Assembly (NCBI GenBank): GCA_002683405.1 | Contig: NYTH01000047.1 | Location: forward strand, 1-64,000 | Length of the DNA stretch: 64,000 nucleotides | From: Salinisphaeraceae bacterium | Lineage (GTDB): Bacteria; Pseudomonadota; Gammaproteobacteria; Nevskiales; Salinisphaeraceae | Direction of reading: 5' to 3' | Shown: positions 20,792 to 46,291 of the stretch, piece after piece | Numbering within the stretch: the stretch's first letter is position 1 | How the letters are laid out: each line of letters begins with the position of its first letter | Position numbers and translations under genes: made by a program | Notes under the pieces: generated by a model | What the model was told of the DNA's origin: nothing | The model's input: the letters and a program-made list of their open reading frames with translations, nothing else | Databases searched by the model: none

Positions 20792-20860
20792 TCTCCGCCT
20801 GAGTAGAAAACGATGCCGGATGGTCGGTCGCCGCCGTCCGGCCGCGAACAAGGGGGAGAC

Positions 20861-22168
20861 ATGGGCATTCGCGGGCGTCTCTTGCTAGGCCTGCTGGCGG
20901 GCCTGGCCGCCGGCCAGGTGCAGGCCACGGGTTATTTTCTGAATGGCGCAGGCGCCAGCGCGCGCGGCATGGCGGGGGCCGGCGTGGCGCTGGCGGAGGA
21001 CGCCATGTCCATCGCCAACAACCCGGCCGCCGCCGTCGGCCTGAGCGGCCGGCAATGGCAGATCGGGAGCATCTTCCTTCATCCACGCCCCAAGGTGATT
21101 GTCGGCGAGCAGCCGCAGGAGGCCCCGCCGCCCGGCGCCATCCCGCTGCGCCCGGGCATCTACAGCAGCCGCCCGGAAGTGGCCACGCAGGCCGGCGGCA
21201 CCTTTGCCATCCCGTTCGGCGCGATCAGCTGGCGGCTCAACGAGCGCTGGGCGGTGGGTCTGTCCGTCTATGGCAACGGCGGCTTGAATTCCACCTTCCG
21301 GGCCAACGCGCCCAACCCCAACTGCGGCCCGGGGACTCGCGGCGAGGGGCTGCTCTGCGGCGGCACCCTGTCGTCGGACATCGGTCAGACCTTTATCTCG
21401 CCCACGGTCGCCTGGCAGCCGCTGTCCTGGCTCAGGCTGGGTCTGGCGCCCCAGATCGTCTGGCAGTCGCTGGAAATCCAGGGGTTCGAGCTGTTGGCCG
21501 GCCAGTCGAATGATCCGGACAACTTCACCAACAACGGGCACGATCACGCGCTGGGTTATGCGCTGATGGGTGGCCTGCAGATCAATATCCTGGACAAGGT
21601 CCAGTTCGGCCTGGTGGCGCAGACCAAGACCGAAATGGACGAGTTCGACGACTACGCCGGTCTGCTGCCCGAACAGGGCAAGCTGGATATTGCCCCCTAC
21701 TTCCAGGCCGGTCTGGCCTGGGACGTCAGTTCGCGGCTCACGTTTGCGGTCGATTTTCAGCGCATCTACTTCGGCTCCGTCAGCGCCACCGGCAACGACG
21801 TGGTCACCGGGGAGCCCTACGGCGCCGACAACGGTCCGGGCTTTGGCTGGGGTGACACCAAGACCTGGAAATTCGGCTTCCGCTACCGCGCCAACGATGA
21901 CTGGACGTTTCGCGGCGGCTACGCGGACGGGCGCTCGCAAATCGAGTCGGATGAGGTCTTCTACAACCTCGTCTCCGGCAGCATCCTGGCCGATCGTTTC
22001 GATATCGGCGTGACGCGCCGGGTGGGCGAGAAAACCTATCTGGACGCCACGCTGGGTTATTTTCCCGACCAGCAGCTGACCGGGCCCAACGCCACGCTGC
22101 CCGAGCAGGAAATCACGCTGTCGCTGGGCGGCGTGGCGGTGGACCTCGGCATCGGCCGGCGATTCTAG
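20861..22168 (+). CDS. FadL/Toluene_X-type outer-membrane transport protein
   Basis: 435 residues from ATG 20861, preceded by AGGGGGAGA. Signal peptide to about residue 22 (VQA/TGYFLNG). The mature N-terminus has the FadL family signature: GASARGMAGAGVALAEDAMSIANNPAA. The rest is a beta-barrel with repeated amphipathic strands and a final IGRRF. FadL-type barrels admit hydrophobic compounds such as long-chain fatty acids or hydrocarbons. A clear paralogue is at 23287. The gene lies in the lipid catabolism block, which suits uptake of a hydrophobic substrate. Confidence 0.85.
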   Translation: MGIRGRLLLGLLAGLAAGQVQATGYFLNGAGASARGMAGAGVALAEDAMSIANNPAAAVGLSGRQWQIGSIFLHPRPKVIVGEQPQEAPPPGAIPLRPGIYSSRPEVATQAGGTFAIPFGAISWRLNERWAVGLSVYGNGGLNSTFRANAPNPNCGPGTRGEGLLCGGTLSSDIGQTFISPTVAWQPLSWLRLGLAPQIVWQSLEIQGFELLAGQSNDPDNFTNNGHDHALGYALMGGLQINILDKVQFGLVAQTKTEMDEFDDYAGLLPEQGKLDIAPYFQAGLAWDVSSRLTFAVDFQRIYFGSVSATGNDVVTGEPYGADNGPGFGWGDTKTWKFGFRYRANDDWTFRGGYADGRSQIESDEVFYNLVSGSILADRFDIGVTRRVGEKTYLDATLGYFPDQQLTGPNATLPEQEITLSLGGVAVDLGIGRRF

Positions 22169-37732: not shown

Positions 37733-37840
37733 ATCGTACATTCTCAACGGGTTGGACAGCGCGGGCGCAGCCCGGCCGGATGACTCAAAGCGTTTATCCG
37801 CGCGATATTGTATACCAGCCGCCCGCCCCGTTCACTGATC

Positions 37841-38458
37841 ATGACCCCTTCCAAAACAAATACGTCGGCCCGCGCACTGCAGGCCCCTGCCTTTCTGATC
37901 AGCGCCGCATCGGCGCGCCAGTTTCCGGGCGACGGCCGGCCGGAGGTCGCGTTCGCGGGCCGCTCCAACGCGGGCAAGTCCAGCGCGCTCAACCTGATCT
38001 GCGAGCGCCGCAAACTGGCGCGCACCAGCAAGACACCCGGCCGTACGCAGCTGGTGAATTTCTTTGATGTCGAGGCGGGCCGTCTGGTCGATCTGCCGGG
38101 TTACGGGTTTGCGCGCGTGCCGCCCGCCGTTCGCGCGAAATGGCAGACACTGGTGGAAAGCTATTTCAGCCAGCGCGATGCGCTCCGCGGCGTGGTGCTC
38201 ATCATGGATTCGCGACATCCGCTGACGGCATTCGACGAGCAGATGCTTGGGTGGACTCTCGCCGGCGGTCTGCCGACGCATATCCTGCTGACCAAGGCCG
38301 ACAAGCTGGGGCGCGGGGCTCAGACGGACTGTCTGCGCAGCGTCCGCAAGGCGCTCGAAGAAACGCCCGCTACCGTGCAGACGTTTTCGGCGACCACGCG
38401 GATCGGTCTGGACGAGGCGCGCGCGCAGATTCAGGGCTGGCTGACCGAGCCGGTCTGA
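37841..38458 (+). CDS. engB: ribosome-biogenesis GTPase EngB (YsxC/YihA)
   Basis: 205 residues from ATG 37841. TRAFAC GTPase motifs: G1 AGRSNAGKSSALN, G2-region TSKTPGRTQLVNFF, G3 DLPGYGFARVP, G4 LTKADKL, G5 TFSATTRIG. It assists assembly of the large ribosomal subunit. It converges on the sRNA and polA on the other strand, reproducing the enteric and Pseudomonas gene neighbourhood. No strong ribosome-binding site is visible before the ATG. Confidence 0.92.
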   Translation: MTPSKTNTSARALQAPAFLISAASARQFPGDGRPEVAFAGRSNAGKSSALNLICERRKLARTSKTPGRTQLVNFFDVEAGRLVDLPGYGFARVPPAVRAKWQTLVESYFSQRDALRGVVLIMDSRHPLTAFDEQMLGWTLAGGLPTHILLTKADKLGRGAQTDCLRSVRKALEETPATVQTFSATTRIGLDEARAQIQGWLTEPV

Positions 38459-38473
38459 GCCCGAATAGCGGAC

Positions 38474-38584
38474 AAAAAAAATCCCCGATGGCAGGGGGAG
38501 TACCATCGGGGGAACTTCTCCGGTCTTGGGGGGAACCGGATTTTCCGCTCAGGGAGAACAAGCGGGTAAGCGTGTTGCGCTTAC
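38474..38584 (-). ncRNA. structured sRNA with C-rich loops between polA and engB
   Basis: Predicted transcript of about 111 nt on the minus strand. Stem-loop 1: GTAAGCG/CGCTTAC (38566-38584). Stem-loop 2: CCGCT/AGCGG with loop TGTTCTCCCTG (38545-38565). Stem-loop 3: TCCGGT/ACCGGA with loop TCCCCCCAAG (38519-38540). Stem-loop 4: CCCCGATGG/CCATCGGGG with loop TACTCCCCCTG (38483-38511), followed by eight U (38481-38474). Three of the four loops carry pyrimidine/C runs complementary to Shine-Dalgarno-like G-rich sites. The locus downstream of polA is that of Spot 42 (enterics) and ErsA (Pseudomonas); the C-rich-loop design recalls Xanthomonas sX13. Family membership is inference. Confidence 0.8.
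38483..38511 (-). terminator. intrinsic terminator of the sRNA (and of polA read-through)
   Basis: Perfect 9-bp stem CCCCGATGG / CCATCGGGG with an 11-nt C-rich loop, followed on the minus strand by A and then eight T down to 38474. It doubles as stem-loop 4 of the predicted sRNA. Confidence 0.9.
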
Positions 38585-38589
38585 GGGAA

Positions 38590-38617
38590 TTAAGACCGGT
38601 GTTCTCGAGGTTAGTTC
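38590..38617 (-). promoter_or_regulatory. candidate sigma-E-like promoter of the sRNA
   Basis: On the minus strand GAACTA (38617-38612), 16 bp, then TCTTAA (38595-38590) resembles the RpoE/AlgU consensus GAACTT-N16-TCTGA. Transcription would start about 7 bp on, at 38584, the first base of stem-loop 1. Directly upstream lie runs of eight to nine A or T (about 38618-38650), like an UP element. The same bases can also be read as a weak sigma-70 promoter (TTGAAC, 18 bp, TCTTAA). The rest of the gap to polA (38651-38791) is A/T-rich with nothing else recognisable. Confidence 0.5.
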
Positions 38618-38791
38618 AAAAAAAATTCCATTTTTTTTTCATTTTTTTTCAAAGACTTGCAAAGAAGCTGAACAGCTTATTAAAAACCGGAATCAAAAGA
38701 GCAACTTAGCATCAGGGCTATTTTCTGACGCAATTTGCAGACAGTTTTTTGTAGGACAAACAGCCGCTTACGGCAGACGTGTATCAGCGGT

Positions 38792-41503
38792 TTAGTGCGC
38801 CTGATCCCAGTTTTCTCCGGAACCGGCCTCCGCGAGCAGCGGGACCCGCAATTCGGCCACGGCGCACATGCGGTCGCACAGGGTCTTGGAAAGGGTCTTC
38901 AAACAGTCCTCGCGCACCTCGAAAACCAGTTCGTCGTGCACCTGCATGATGATGCGGGCCTCGTCGGAGCGCTGCGCGAGATAGCCGTGGATATCGATCA
39001 TCGCCAGCTTGATCAGGTCGGCCGCCGTGCCCTGGAGCGGCGCGTTGATCGCGGTGCGCTCCGCGTACTGACGCCGCTGGGCGTTGCGTGAGCGGATATC
39101 GGGCAGATAGAGCCGGCGGCCGAACAGGGTTTCCACATAGCCCTGCTCGCGGGCGGCGCGGCGGGGGTTGTCCATGAATGCCCGCACGCCGGCAAACCGC
39201 TCGAAAAAGCGATCAATATAGTCGCCCGCCTCGCCGCGGCTGACGTGCAGCTGACGCGACAGCCCGAAGGCGCTCATGCCGTACATCAGCCCGAAATTGA
39301 TGGCCTTGGCCGCGCGGCGCTGATCGCCGGTCACGGCATCGGCGGCCGTATCGAATACCTCGGCCGCGGTGGCCTGGTGAATATCGGCGCCGTCGCGGAA
39401 AGCCCGCACCAACACCGGGTCTTCGGAAAGATGCGCCATGAGCCGCAGCTCGATCTGCGAGTAGTCCACCGCCAGCAGCTTGTAGCCCTGCGGCGCGATG
39501 AAGGCCTCGCGGATGCGCCGACCGCTCTCGGTGCGGATGGGAATGTTCTGCAGGTTCGGATCGGACGAGGACAGCCGTCCGGTCGCCGCGACCGCCTGGT
39601 GGTAGCTGGTATGCACGCGACCGGTCTGCGGGTTGACCTGCTCGGGCAACTTGTCGGTGTAGGTTGAGCGCAGCTTCGACAGTTCGCGCCAGTCGAGAAT
39701 GAGCTGGGGCAGGGCGTGCTGATCGGCCAGTTCCGCCAGCACGTCTTCCGCCGTCGAGGGCGCGCCCTTGGGCGTCTTGCGCAGTACCGGCAGTTCGAGC
39801 CGGTCGAACAGGATGTCCTTGAGCTGGGCGGGCGAGCCCAGGTTGAACTTGCCCCCCGCCTGCTCGAAGGCCTGCTGCTCGAGATCGACCATGCGCTTGC
39901 CCATTTCCTGGCTCAACCCGGCCAGAAAATCGCAATCGATCAGCACGCCGGTGTGCTCGATATCCGCCAGCACCGGCATGAGGGGCATCTCGATGTCGTG
40001 AAACAGCCGGGCCAGCCCGTCATCCTTGCGCAGACGACCATAAAGATGCTGATGCAGCTGCAGGGTGATGTCGGCGTCCTCGGCCGCGTACGGCCCGGCC
40101 TCGTCAAGGCCGATCTGATTGAAGCTGAGCTGTTTCTTGCCCTTGCCGGCCACGTCCTCGAACTTGATGGTGCCGCGGTTCAGGTAATTGCGGGCCAGCG
40201 AGTCCATGTCGTGGCGCGTAGCGGTGCTGTTGAGCACATAGGATTCGAGCATGGTGTCGAAGTCCGCACCCTGTAGCCGGATGCCGTGGCGCGCCAACAC
40301 GTTGATGTCGTACTTCAGGTGCTGGCCAAGCTTGGGCCTGTCCGGGTCTTCGAGCAGCGGCTTGAGCTGCTCGATCACCCAGTCGCGGGGCAGCTGATCG
40401 GGCGCGCCGGGGTAGTCATGCGCCACGGGCACGTACCAGGCCTGGCCCGGCTCGACCGCGAGCGACAGCCCGACCAGCCCCGACTGCATGCTGCTCAGGC
40501 TGTCGGTTTCGGTGTCCACGCAAATCAGCTCGGCCCGCTCGAGCGCCTTGAGCATGACGCCAAACGCGGCCTTGTCGGTGACGGTCTGATAGTCGGTGCT
40601 GGCGGGCGCTTCCGGGGCCGGCTCGGCCTGCACGGGCTCGCCGGCCTCAAGCTCTTCGAGCCAGCTGTTGAACTCGAACTGGCGGAAGAGGGCGGCCAGC
40701 GCGTCTTCGTCAACCTCTCCACGCCGGATGTCGGCCAGGCCGATGTCCAGCTCAAGCTCGCAGCGGATGGTGGCCAGATCCTGGTACAGCGGCAGCTCAT
40801 CGAGCGCCGCCTTGAGATTGTCGGCCACCTTGCCGCCGATATCGCCCGCGTTGTCGATCACGCCCTGCAGGTCGCCGTACAGCTCCAGCCATTTGGCCGC
40901 CGTTTTCGGCCCCACCTTGGATACGCCCGGAATATTGTCCGAGCTGTCGCCCACCAGCGCCAGATAATCGGTGATGCGTTCGGGCGCCACGCCGAATTTC
41001 TCCCGCACGCGGGCTACGTCGGTGCGCTTGTCCTGCATGGTGTCCAGCAGCACCACGTGATCGTCGACCAGCTGGGCCATGTCCTTGTCGCTGGTGACGA
41101 TGAGCACGTCTTCGTCCGCGCCACGCGCCTGGCGGGTGAGCGTGCCGATCACGTCATCGGCCTCGACGCCCTCCATCTGGATCAGCGGCAGCCCCATGGC
41201 CTGAATGATGTCCCGCAACCCGGCAAACTGGGCCGACAGTTCTTCGGGCACCGGCGGCCGGTTGGCCTTGTAGTCGGCAAACAGCTCGTGCCGGAAACTC
41301 TTGCCGCGCGCATCGAAGATGACGGCAATACGCTCGCCCGGAAACTGCCGCAACAGCTTGCGCAGCATATTGGTCATGCCGTAGATCGCGCCGGTGGGCT
41401 CGCCCTGGCTGTTGGTGAGCGGCGGCAGCGCGTGAAAGGCCCGATACAGCCAGGAGGAGCCGTCGATGAGAATGAGCGGGGCGTTCGATTCGGATGGACT
41501 CAT
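38792..41503 (-). CDS. polA: DNA polymerase I
   Basis: 903 residues from ATG 41503. Residues 1 to about 290 are the 5'-3' exonuclease (LILIDGSSWLYRAFHALPPL, VEADDVIGTL, DNIPGVSKVGPKTA). The 3'-5' proofreading domain keeps the DTET metal motif (ICVDTETDSL). The polymerase domain has motif A YSQIELRLMAH, motif B region RRAAKAINFGLMYGM and motif C VHDELVFEV. Full-length and apparently fully active. It follows lysA after 60 bp on the same strand, and the sRNA gene lies downstream. Confidence 0.96.
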   Translation of the reverse strand: MSPSESNAPLILIDGSSWLYRAFHALPPLTNSQGEPTGAIYGMTNMLRKLLRQFPGERIAVIFDARGKSFRHELFADYKANRPPVPEELSAQFAGLRDIIQAMGLPLIQMEGVEADDVIGTLTRQARGADEDVLIVTSDKDMAQLVDDHVVLLDTMQDKRTDVARVREKFGVAPERITDYLALVGDSSDNIPGVSKVGPKTAAKWLELYGDLQGVIDNAGDIGGKVADNLKAALDELPLYQDLATIRCELELDIGLADIRRGEVDEDALAALFRQFEFNSWLEELEAGEPVQAEPAPEAPASTDYQTVTDKAAFGVMLKALERAELICVDTETDSLSSMQSGLVGLSLAVEPGQAWYVPVAHDYPGAPDQLPRDWVIEQLKPLLEDPDRPKLGQHLKYDINVLARHGIRLQGADFDTMLESYVLNSTATRHDMDSLARNYLNRGTIKFEDVAGKGKKQLSFNQIGLDEAGPYAAEDADITLQLHQHLYGRLRKDDGLARLFHDIEMPLMPVLADIEHTGVLIDCDFLAGLSQEMGKRMVDLEQQAFEQAGGKFNLGSPAQLKDILFDRLELPVLRKTPKGAPSTAEDVLAELADQHALPQLILDWRELSKLRSTYTDKLPEQVNPQTGRVHTSYHQAVAATGRLSSSDPNLQNIPIRTESGRRIREAFIAPQGYKLLAVDYSQIELRLMAHLSEDPVLVRAFRDGADIHQATAAEVFDTAADAVTGDQRRAAKAINFGLMYGMSAFGLSRQLHVSRGEAGDYIDRFFERFAGVRAFMDNPRRAAREQGYVETLFGRRLYLPDIRSRNAQRRQYAERTAINAPLQGTAADLIKLAMIDIHGYLAQRSDEARIIMQVHDELVFEVREDCLKTLSKTLCDRMCAVAELRVPLLAEAGSGENWDQAH

Positions 41504-41563
41504 GGCTTGCGCTCGGGCTGAAACGGTCGAATGAAACACGCACCGGCCGGGGCCGGTCACGCA

Positions 41564-44559: not shown

Positions 44560-46194
44560 CTAGTAGCTGTAGCGAACGCCGAAGGAGAGGGCGTCGAAAT
44601 CGATGTCCTCTTCTGTCGTGCCGTCGTCAACGTCGAATTCGCCGTCAGTAAAGCTGATGACGAAATCGATATCATCCCACTTCTCGGCGTTCTCCGGCCC
44701 CATGACCAGTCGCAGGCCCCAGAGCGAGGGATCGACGTCCAGATCACCCGTGCCGACATCGCCTTCACTGCGACCTTCGCGGTACCAGGCGTTGAACTCC
44801 AGGCCGGGCAATACCATCCAGCGAAGACCGGCTTCGCCGCCGTAGCCTTCGGTCGCAAAGCCGGCCAGATTCATGCGGTCATAGGTGACCTGCAGATAGC
44901 CGTCCACATAGCTCTTGCCCACAGGCATGCCGTAACGCAGACCGGGGCCCACATTGAGCATGTCGGTCAGAACCAGATCGGTCGTGCTGCCGGCTACGCC
45001 GTAGTCGAAGGTCCAGTTCTGCGCCCGCAGGAAAAGATTGCTGGTCAACAGGTAGGACGCTTCCAGGCCGATCCCCCGGTCGACATCCAGCGCATCGTTC
45101 ACGCCATCATCGATGTCGACCTCGCCGTCGACCACATAGTCGAACTGCAGATAGTTGTAGCTGGTGACCGGATCCTCGGGCGCGGCGCGACTGCTCGACC
45201 ACGGCAGTCCGTAGTAGTAGCGCAGCCCGGCGGTAAACATGCTCAGGTCGGGCTCTTCATCGATCCCCAGACCACTGTTCTTGATCTCGGCGTCGCCCTC
45301 GGCATAGCCGACGCTCAACGCCAGGTTGGGCGTGACGCGGTAGCGCACGTCCAGGCCGTAGAGCAGCGGTTCGACGTCATAGTCGCCCGCTTCGGCATCC
45401 GCGTACCGCGCATGCAGATCAACCTCGAAGCTGTTGACCTTCAGGCGAAGTCCGCCCGCCAGGCCGTAGCCCGTCGCCGGTTCTGCGATCAGCGGCCCGC
45501 CCACCTGCAGGCGGTCGTAGCCCGCCTGGAGAAACACGTCCAGATGCGTACTGCCGCGATCCAGCACCTCCTCGCGCAGACCCACGGCAACGCTCTGCCA
45601 GTCGGTCAGCGCGAATTCGGTGCTACCAACCAGATCATCATCATAGTTGGGCGCCCAACTGCTACCCCGCAGGTAGAACAGCTCGCCCAGACTCTTGGAC
45701 GCATCCAGGGTGATCCCTTCGCCGTCCACATCCTCGTCGTTGATGTCCTCGACCTCGGCATCGATGATCCAGCCCACCTGGAAGTAGTCGTAGCTGATGT
45801 CGTCGCCGGCATCCCGCATCATCTGACGGCTGGCGGCGGCCCCCGCTGCGGCCTGGTTCGCCGCGGCGCCGCCCACCAGATTCACGCGCAGGGCGTGGCT
45901 GCCGCTGGCCGGCACGCTCACGCGGACCCGTTCCTCGGCGCCGTTGGGCGCGCGCGTGACGATCTGGTAATTGCCCGGCTGTGTCACCGGTATCATCACG
46001 ATGCCGTCGCTGTTGTCATCGCGGGCGGCCGATACCGTGTTGCCCTGGCTATCGACCAGGTTGACCGTCACGCCCGACACGGGCTGTTCGGCGTCCACAA
46101 CGCGGATATTGAGATTGGCCGTGGCCCACGCGGCCCCCTGCCATCCCAGCAGCAGGCCGGCGCACAACCCGGCTGTTCGCACATGTGTCTTCAT
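44560..46194 (-). CDS. outer-membrane protein with N-terminal beta-sandwich and two homologous barrel modules
   Basis: 544 residues. Signal peptide to about residue 25; residues 26-108 look like a carboxypeptidase-regulatory-type beta-sandwich (NLNIRVVDAEQPVSGVTVNLVD). Module A (about 135-335) and module B (346-544) are related by eye: YDYFQVGWIIDAEVED and YNYLQFDYVVDGEVDI at their starts, then matching LASKSLGELFYLRGSSW / LLTSNLFLRAQNW-type strands and DVFLQAGYDRLQVGG / DGYLQVTYDRMNLAG. Each would form about eight strands. The protein ends FGVRYSY, an outer-membrane beta-signal. Acidic DID/DVD turns recur and may bind cations. Function unknown. Confidence 0.72.
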   Translation of the reverse strand: MKTHVRTAGLCAGLLLGWQGAAWATANLNIRVVDAEQPVSGVTVNLVDSQGNTVSAARDDNSDGIVMIPVTQPGNYQIVTRAPNGAEERVRVSVPASGSHALRVNLVGGAAANQAAAGAAASRQMMRDAGDDISYDYFQVGWIIDAEVEDINDEDVDGEGITLDASKSLGELFYLRGSSWAPNYDDDLVGSTEFALTDWQSVAVGLREEVLDRGSTHLDVFLQAGYDRLQVGGPLIAEPATGYGLAGGLRLKVNSFEVDLHARYADAEAGDYDVEPLLYGLDVRYRVTPNLALSVGYAEGDAEIKNSGLGIDEEPDLSMFTAGLRYYYGLPWSSSRAAPEDPVTSYNYLQFDYVVDGEVDIDDGVNDALDVDRGIGLEASYLLTSNLFLRAQNWTFDYGVAGSTTDLVLTDMLNVGPGLRYGMPVGKSYVDGYLQVTYDRMNLAGFATEGYGGEAGLRWMVLPGLEFNAWYREGRSEGDVGTGDLDVDPSLWGLRLVMGPENAEKWDDIDFVISFTDGEFDVDDGTTEEDIDFDALSFGVRYSY

Positions 46195-46291
46195 CAGTCT
46201 TGCTCCCTGTTATCGCTTATATTCCGGACCGGCGATGGTCGCCGGCGGGATCGGCGCACCCGGGCGTGCCCAAAAATGGTGCATCCTGCCG

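Follow-up and report, generated by a model that had tools for sequence, protein, structure and literature searches.

In the 64,000-nucleotide stretch of Salinisphaeraceae DNA analyzed here (contig NYTH01000047.1; hereafter the window), the gap between polA (38792..41560, minus strand) and engB/ysxC (37808..38458, plus strand) contains a predicted sRNA transcript at 38474..38584 on the minus strand. The polA gene is the upstream neighbor on the same strand, while engB lies downstream in convergent orientation, giving the order polA → sRNA ← engB. The transcript is supported by its fold z score, our own covariance model and the conservation of the locus, and its 5′ end, placed from the -10 box, has a margin of a few nucleotides. 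Our model spans positions 38473-38590 with 105.7 bits, a score to be read with the window copy being a member of the training set. Judged from its sequence, the element is a small regulatory RNA gene adjoining the gene for DNA polymerase I, as the initial annotation had proposed; Spot 42 lies at this locus in E. coli, and sX13 lies beside polA (PMC3771888).

The promoter was read on the minus strand as a sigma-E-type -35 box, GAACTA (38612..38617), and, after a spacer of 16 nucleotides, a -10 box, TCTTAA (38590..38595). A/T runs at 38618..38648, on the 5′ side of the -35 box, may serve as an UP element. A scan of the window locus found no sigma-70-type promoter site. The predicted RNA, also on the minus strand, consists of four consecutive hairpins. 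Hairpin 1 (38566..38584), assigned by folding and covariation, forms the 5′ stem GUAAGCG/CGCUUAC around a variable loop that is not C-rich. In hairpin 2 (38545..38565), the arms CCGCUUG and UGAGCGG enclose the loop UUCUCCC, and the core CUCCCUGAGCGG lies at 38545-38556. Hairpin 3 (38519..38540), UCCGGUU[CCCCCCAA]GACCGGA, was assigned by folding and the family alignment. Hairpin 4 (38474..38511), CCCCGAUGGUA[CUCCCCC]UGCCAUCGGGG followed by a T8 tail, is the putative intrinsic terminator, supported by folding, covarying pairs and a consensus terminator scan of the window locus, which recovered it. The predicted RNA has a minimum free energy of -47.1 kcal/mol (z -6.0), and none of 200 shuffled sequences was equally stable. 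The promoter-like motif, the upstream A/T runs, the terminator and the three C-rich loops, which are those of hairpins 2, 3 and 4, had all been described in the initial annotation and are present. Its four stem-loops are there as well, but calling them perfect was slightly generous, because stems 2-4 have wobble pairs at their inner ends.

When 60 relatives were searched at the DNA level, the sRNA was recovered from 15 of the 16 genomes of the same family, often several times, and at each retrieved locus it sits between polA and engB. The window's genus and the genus g3 carry one copy each, and the sister genus g2 carries tandem arrays at all 13 loci examined (the polA-engB gaps L031-L043), with three copies at six loci, four at four, five at two and six at one. 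Every array copy has its own promoter, GGAAC[T/A/C]-N15-17-GTCTNA with minor variants, and its own terminator, and many copies are preceded by AAAATTTT runs resembling the A/T runs upstream of the -35 box in the window. In a tree of the copies, some proved to be positional orthologs in different species, such as the engB-proximal copies of L035, L037, L038 and L040, and others to be recent local duplicates (copies 3-5 of L036 and copies 2-4 of L039). The amplification in g2 probably serves dosage, and the arrays provide naturally graded doses of the sRNA gene. No paper on a tandem sRNA array at the polA-engB locus was found in the library searched.

Two- to four-copy tandem sets of RNAs resembling the Rfam family anti-hemB (RF02837), to which we return below, occur in other families as well (G321:C3:217579-218301; G050:C3, locus L047; G165:C1:904217-904516; G187:C20; G207:C5; G209:C7; G320:C1), and the amplification of this sRNA gene therefore seems to have occurred more than once. 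The gaps themselves contain further insertions. At about 4380-5700 of L041, an IS-like transposase reading frame of ~1.3 kb has, by reading, apparently been inserted between array copies 2 and 3. In L031-L038 of the sister genus, a small ORF that follows a Fur-box-like GATAATGATTCTCATT separates the last sRNA copy from engB; this ORF is absent from the window. In L044 (G002), polA and the one sRNA copy are separated by ~1.7 kb of additional coding sequence, which by eye is dihydroxyacetone-kinase-like.

The sequence CCGCUU..CUCCCUGAGCGG is invariant in all 49 copies of the family alignment, in which hairpin 1 and the terminator stem covary. Among 44 copies from many families, 95.8% of the pair cells are standard pairs, and all four modeled pairs of hairpin 1 have changed on both sides. 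Both-sided changes were found in 18 of the 21 pairs, a number reached by none of 500 shuffles and far from that of slid versions, although this alignment was fitted to the structure model and the count thus leans towards structure; the unfitted family alignment showed such changes in 13 of the 21 pairs. Distant copies form hairpin 2 with different but compensated arms (GCCTGT/ACAGGC in Woeseiaceae MAGs, CCACTC/GAGTGG and CCGTCC/GGACGG), while the loop CUCCCU is kept, a conservation that is partly ascertained because the distant copies were recruited with models rewarding this loop. The conservation of stems and C-rich loops in related genomes, which the initial annotation had named as a check by covariance alignment, was thus observed.

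These data bear on the simplest alternative, in which the element is a strong terminator region of polA with chance hairpins and no independent RNA. Its position downstream of polA on the same strand fits such a region, but chance hairpins would not explain why hairpins 1 and 2 are conserved and covary across many families, why the promoter motif is conserved with each copy, or why each tandem copy has both a promoter and a terminator, and we give this explanation almost no credence. The loops themselves suggest another alternative. Of 34 copies, 26 have the anti-Shine-Dalgarno core CCUCC in their loop region, several loops are carried per molecule, and gene amplification would increase the amount of a sponge; the RNA might thus mimic the 3′ end of 16S rRNA and titrate ribosome-related or RNA-binding proteins, with no pairing to mRNAs. 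However, the window's lineage has UCUCCC instead of CCUCC in loop 2, and such a decoy would leave the enrichment of envelope genes described below unexplained. We therefore regard a decoy function as very improbable.

The Rfam search found no match in the window at the gathering thresholds. The best match of the window copy was anti-hemB RF02837, with 44.8 bits (E 3.6e-9) against a cut-off of 49.5. It was followed by sX13 RF02232, with 22.7 bits (E 0.047), and ErsA RF01719, with 21.3 bits (E 0.1), both against a cut-off of 50; these E values count all 4227 families, and by our own arithmetic the single-family values for sX13 and ErsA are about 1e-5 to 2e-5. The classification as an sX13/ErsA-type regulator in the initial annotation holds for the locus and the C-rich loops, but the scores of the window copy are weak, and the closest family, anti-hemB, had not been named; copies of the sister genus reach 43.5 bits with the sX13 model (cut-off 50). 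Relatives from the same order exceed the RF02837 cut-off (G060, 54.4 bits; G050, 53.2 and 49.7 bits). In the full-length alignment to positions 1-81 of the RF02837 model, the CUCCCUGAGCGG loop/stem hairpin, the middle hairpin and the U-tailed terminator hairpin are all present.

Of 274 genomes sampled across the class, 124 matched RF02837 at E <= 1e-3, 13 of them above the cut-off. At least 55 of the 76 genomes with confident matches have one beside engB and/or polA, a lower bound obtained by comparing the 84 best matches with the positions of EngB and PolA, with Burkholderia not examined by name. Our own covariance model, built from the window's family alone, recovered the same distant loci. 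The same sRNA occupies the polA-engB locus in many Gamma- and Betaproteobacteria, across many families of the class, where its members have mostly gone unrecognized because their scores fall just under the Rfam cut-offs. The strongest class-wide anti-hemB match (65.7 bits; L050 1501-1613, G166) adjoins a HemJ-like reading frame, identified by eye, and not engB or polA. Short two-copy RNAs with a CCUCCCUGAGCGGG hairpin and a terminator loop that is likewise C-rich were found at L054 (1499-1580 and 1698-1784) and L057 (1297-1380 and 1499-1584); engB and polA are absent within 1.5 kb of them, and they are possibly relocated family members.

The locus also raises the question of Spot 42 (RF00021), which is of similar length. 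Spot 42 is controlled, namely repressed, by CRP and depends on Hfq. The gene order in E. coli is likewise polA-sRNA-engB (yihA), and the best match of our family model in the E. coli polA-engB stretch is Spot 42 itself, so that a carbon- or metabolism-control RNA sharing its locus by common descent could be envisaged. That match, however, amounts to 8.5 bits (E 0.053), Spot 42 has no listed match to anti-hemB, sX13 or ErsA, and the promoter in the window is sigma-E-like instead of CRP-repressed. The Rfam search of the window listed no match to RF00021, and the homology for which the initial annotation had suggested a search was not borne out. A Spot 42-like RNA is accordingly a very improbable interpretation.

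A promoter of the sigma-E type, GGAACT-N16-GTCTNA, precedes essentially every family copy. The 23.4 kb of gap sequence on the polA strand contain the motif GGAAC-N-GTC 50 times, as compared to 18 times in the remaining ~308 kb. The looser GAAC-N-TC motif is found before 23 of the 31 distant copies, as compared to 5.8% of random windows. The genome encodes a true RpoE (TIGR02939, above cut-off) as well as Hfq. The exact enteric consensus, GGAACTT-N15-17-TCTGA, has no site anywhere in the window's genome, which implies a less strict consensus than that of E. coli. Upstream of rpoE, no clear matching promoter or autoregulatory site was recognized. The class-wide synteny, the matches of our own model at the same distant loci and the promoter motif together define a single family that keeps its genomic position and, in most of the lineages sampled, has a sigma-E-type promoter. 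The sRNA thus appears, from its promoter, to be switched on by envelope stress via sigma E, and the envelope-stress control that had been raised as a possibility gains in plausibility from the conservation of this promoter with the gene.

At 40 sites in the genome, an ATG is preceded at a distance of 4-9 nt by CAGGGAG, the complement of loop 2, as compared to 4 sites for the reversed pattern, and CAGGGAG is ~1.9 times above its XAGG background; A/G/T-AGGGAG occurs before ATG at 24 sites. Signal peptides are encoded by 10 of 18 genes with an AGGGAG ribosome-binding site and by 31 of 287 other genes of the same loci (Fisher p 1.3e-5), a comparison that rests on crude gene calls. The Pfam families of genes with AGGGAG-type sites include OmpA, Porin_5, a TonB receptor, DUF1302 (twice), DUF481, MlaA and an OMP barrel, and PhoX and DUF3015 genes also follow CAGGGAG sites, whereas the control Shine-Dalgarno sequence GAAGGAG leads to cytosolic enzymes. 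Within the window, a candidate CAGGGAG site (46192..46209, minus strand) precedes the start codon of a β-barrel outer-membrane protein gene (44560-46194; Pfam OMP_b-brl), and a second candidate, AGGGGGAG, the complement of loop 4, is found directly before the start codon (20851..20863, plus strand) of a FadL/OmpP1 family gene (20861-22168; Pfam Toluene_X). The exact 7-mer CAGGGAG was considered as the sole mark of envelope genes, a view that was weakened: A/G/T-AGGGAG marks exported genes too, and the association therefore belongs to the six-base core. Genes that follow the loop-2 complement in the sister genome G010 include several for exported proteins, again with DUF3015, but the sites are mixed, and no Pfam outer-membrane protein is among these genes. 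Since the association recurs only in part in G010, we consider it real for the window's genome but not proof of regulation; it could also reflect the Shine-Dalgarno habits of envelope genes. The prediction of targets at start codons, called for in the initial annotation, thus gave enrichment at exported-protein genes in the genome itself and a weaker signal in G010, and the anti-Shine-Dalgarno action proposed in that annotation appears likely. At another locus (L182 1500-1515; G000:C8:160515), the start codon of an FmdB-like gene is preceded by AGGGAGAACAA, which is complementary over 11 bases to the loop 2 region UUGUUCUCCCU of the window RNA.

The main competitor of an envelope-directed regulator is a general one of the sX13 type, whose C-rich loops would act on G-rich ribosome-binding sites of functionally mixed genes for motility, metabolism and regulation, with envelope genes being only a part. 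sX13 itself lies beside polA, has three C-rich loops and acts as a repressor of mRNAs that have G-rich motifs close to the start (PMC3771888), and the high sX13 scores of the sister copies point in the same direction. In the window's genome, CAGGGAG is also found before genes for citrate synthase, short-chain dehydrogenases, a cation efflux protein and others, in keeping with the mixed sites of G010; CAGGGAG is absent from the start of hfq, which is a target of sX13. On the other hand, a general regulator does not account for the strong enrichment of exported and outer-membrane genes in this genome or for the conserved sigma-E-type promoter, and we consider it unlikely, though the most serious of the alternatives.

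We favor, with a probability of about 0.62, a sigma-E-driven, trans-acting anti-Shine-Dalgarno repressor of envelope mRNAs that belongs to an ancient sRNA family of the polA-engB locus. Under envelope stress, sigma E (RpoE) would start transcription at the GAACT-N16-TCTNA promoter, and the sRNA would fold into four hairpins displaying CUCCC-type loops, above all that of the conserved hairpin 2. The loops could then base-pair with mRNAs at Shine-Dalgarno sequences of the GGGAG type, and many of these mRNAs encode outer-membrane or exported proteins. The predicted pairing would block translation, reduce the amount of these proteins and relieve the envelope, as do MicA, RybB and VrrA. The loops would act as in sX13 (PMC3771888), and the sigma control would resemble that of ErsA (PMC5819304). 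A broader and more tentative proposal, which we hold to be possible but somewhat short of probable, is that the polA-engB gap of many Gamma- and Betaproteobacteria houses one ancient sigma-E-controlled anti-Shine-Dalgarno sRNA family, split by Rfam into anti-hemB, sX13 and possibly ErsA. It would provide a brake on outer-membrane proteins independent of the enteric MicA and RybB, with its dosage tuned in some lineages by tandem amplification to as many as six self-standing copies. Four results go beyond what the initial annotation had described: that the sister genus has tandem arrays, that the synteny extends across the class, that loop 2 is specially conserved, and that there is a link to genes for outer-membrane proteins.

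Among known RNAs, the closest is anti-hemB (RF02837; ncS04 of Burkholderia cenocepacia), which shares the hairpin with a CCUCCCUGAGCGG-type loop, a second hairpin and a C/G-rich terminator hairpin, and whose class-wide matches lie at engB/polA, relatives of the same order passing the cut-off. The window copy differs by an extra 5′ hairpin, longer C-rich loops and its score below the cut-off, and the family members of the sister genus form tandem arrays. ncS04 is transcribed and reported to bind Hfq, and it showed no response to the stresses applied in that study (PMC5688073). By analogy, this lack of response would count against the envelope-stress reading. ErsA (Pseudomon-1, RF01719) of Pseudomonas also has C-rich loops and lies at the same polA-engB locus; it differs in its length of 132 nt and in the long unstructured 5′ part of its Rfam consensus. 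It is driven by sigma 22/AlgU, the RpoE homologue (PMC5819304). sX13 (RF02232) of Xanthomonas has in common with the window sRNA the position beside polA and the three apical C-rich loops; it is described as having stable stems with 4C/5C loops that act on G-rich motifs near start codons without Hfq, and as a single gene with no sigma-E link reported there, as opposed to the arrays of the sister genus and the sigma-E-type promoter found here (PMC3771888).

MicA, RybB and VrrA follow the logic proposed here, from sigma E through an sRNA to less outer-membrane protein, but they differ in locus, sequence and structure, and we found no evidence of homology with the window sRNA. They pair via single-stranded seeds, whereas the proposed pairing of the window sRNA uses hairpin loops. 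For VrrA, Hfq is not strictly required (PMC2628432). The Bordetella 'MicA homolog' CT_532 was considered as a relative and rejected; it is reported to be RpoE-independent, with anti-hemB and engB unmentioned. The NmsR and NgncR_162-163 RNAs of Neisseria and the double-hairpin RNAs of Burkholderia are likewise near-identical sRNAs, some of them in tandem, that direct CU-rich unpaired stretches against ribosome-binding sites; they differ in loci and structures, Neisseria has two tandem copies and not up to six, and no sigma-E promoter is reported there (PMC5688073).

C-rich-loop sRNAs of the polA locus and sigma-E-dependent sRNAs are thus known kinds. As far as our literature search shows, four points are new: synteny across the class together with a common promoter, a link joining anti-hemB to sX13, the tandem arrays, and the hypothesis of outer-membrane targets. 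The sX13 report raised the question of whether sRNAs exist at the polA locus of other bacteria and whether they act alike (PMC3771888). Our data answer its first part with one sequence-structure family at this locus across many families of the class, and for the second they lead to a specific hypothesis, in which envelope stress controls the sRNA, its loops reproduce the anti-Shine-Dalgarno sequence and the mRNAs of outer-membrane proteins are the targets.
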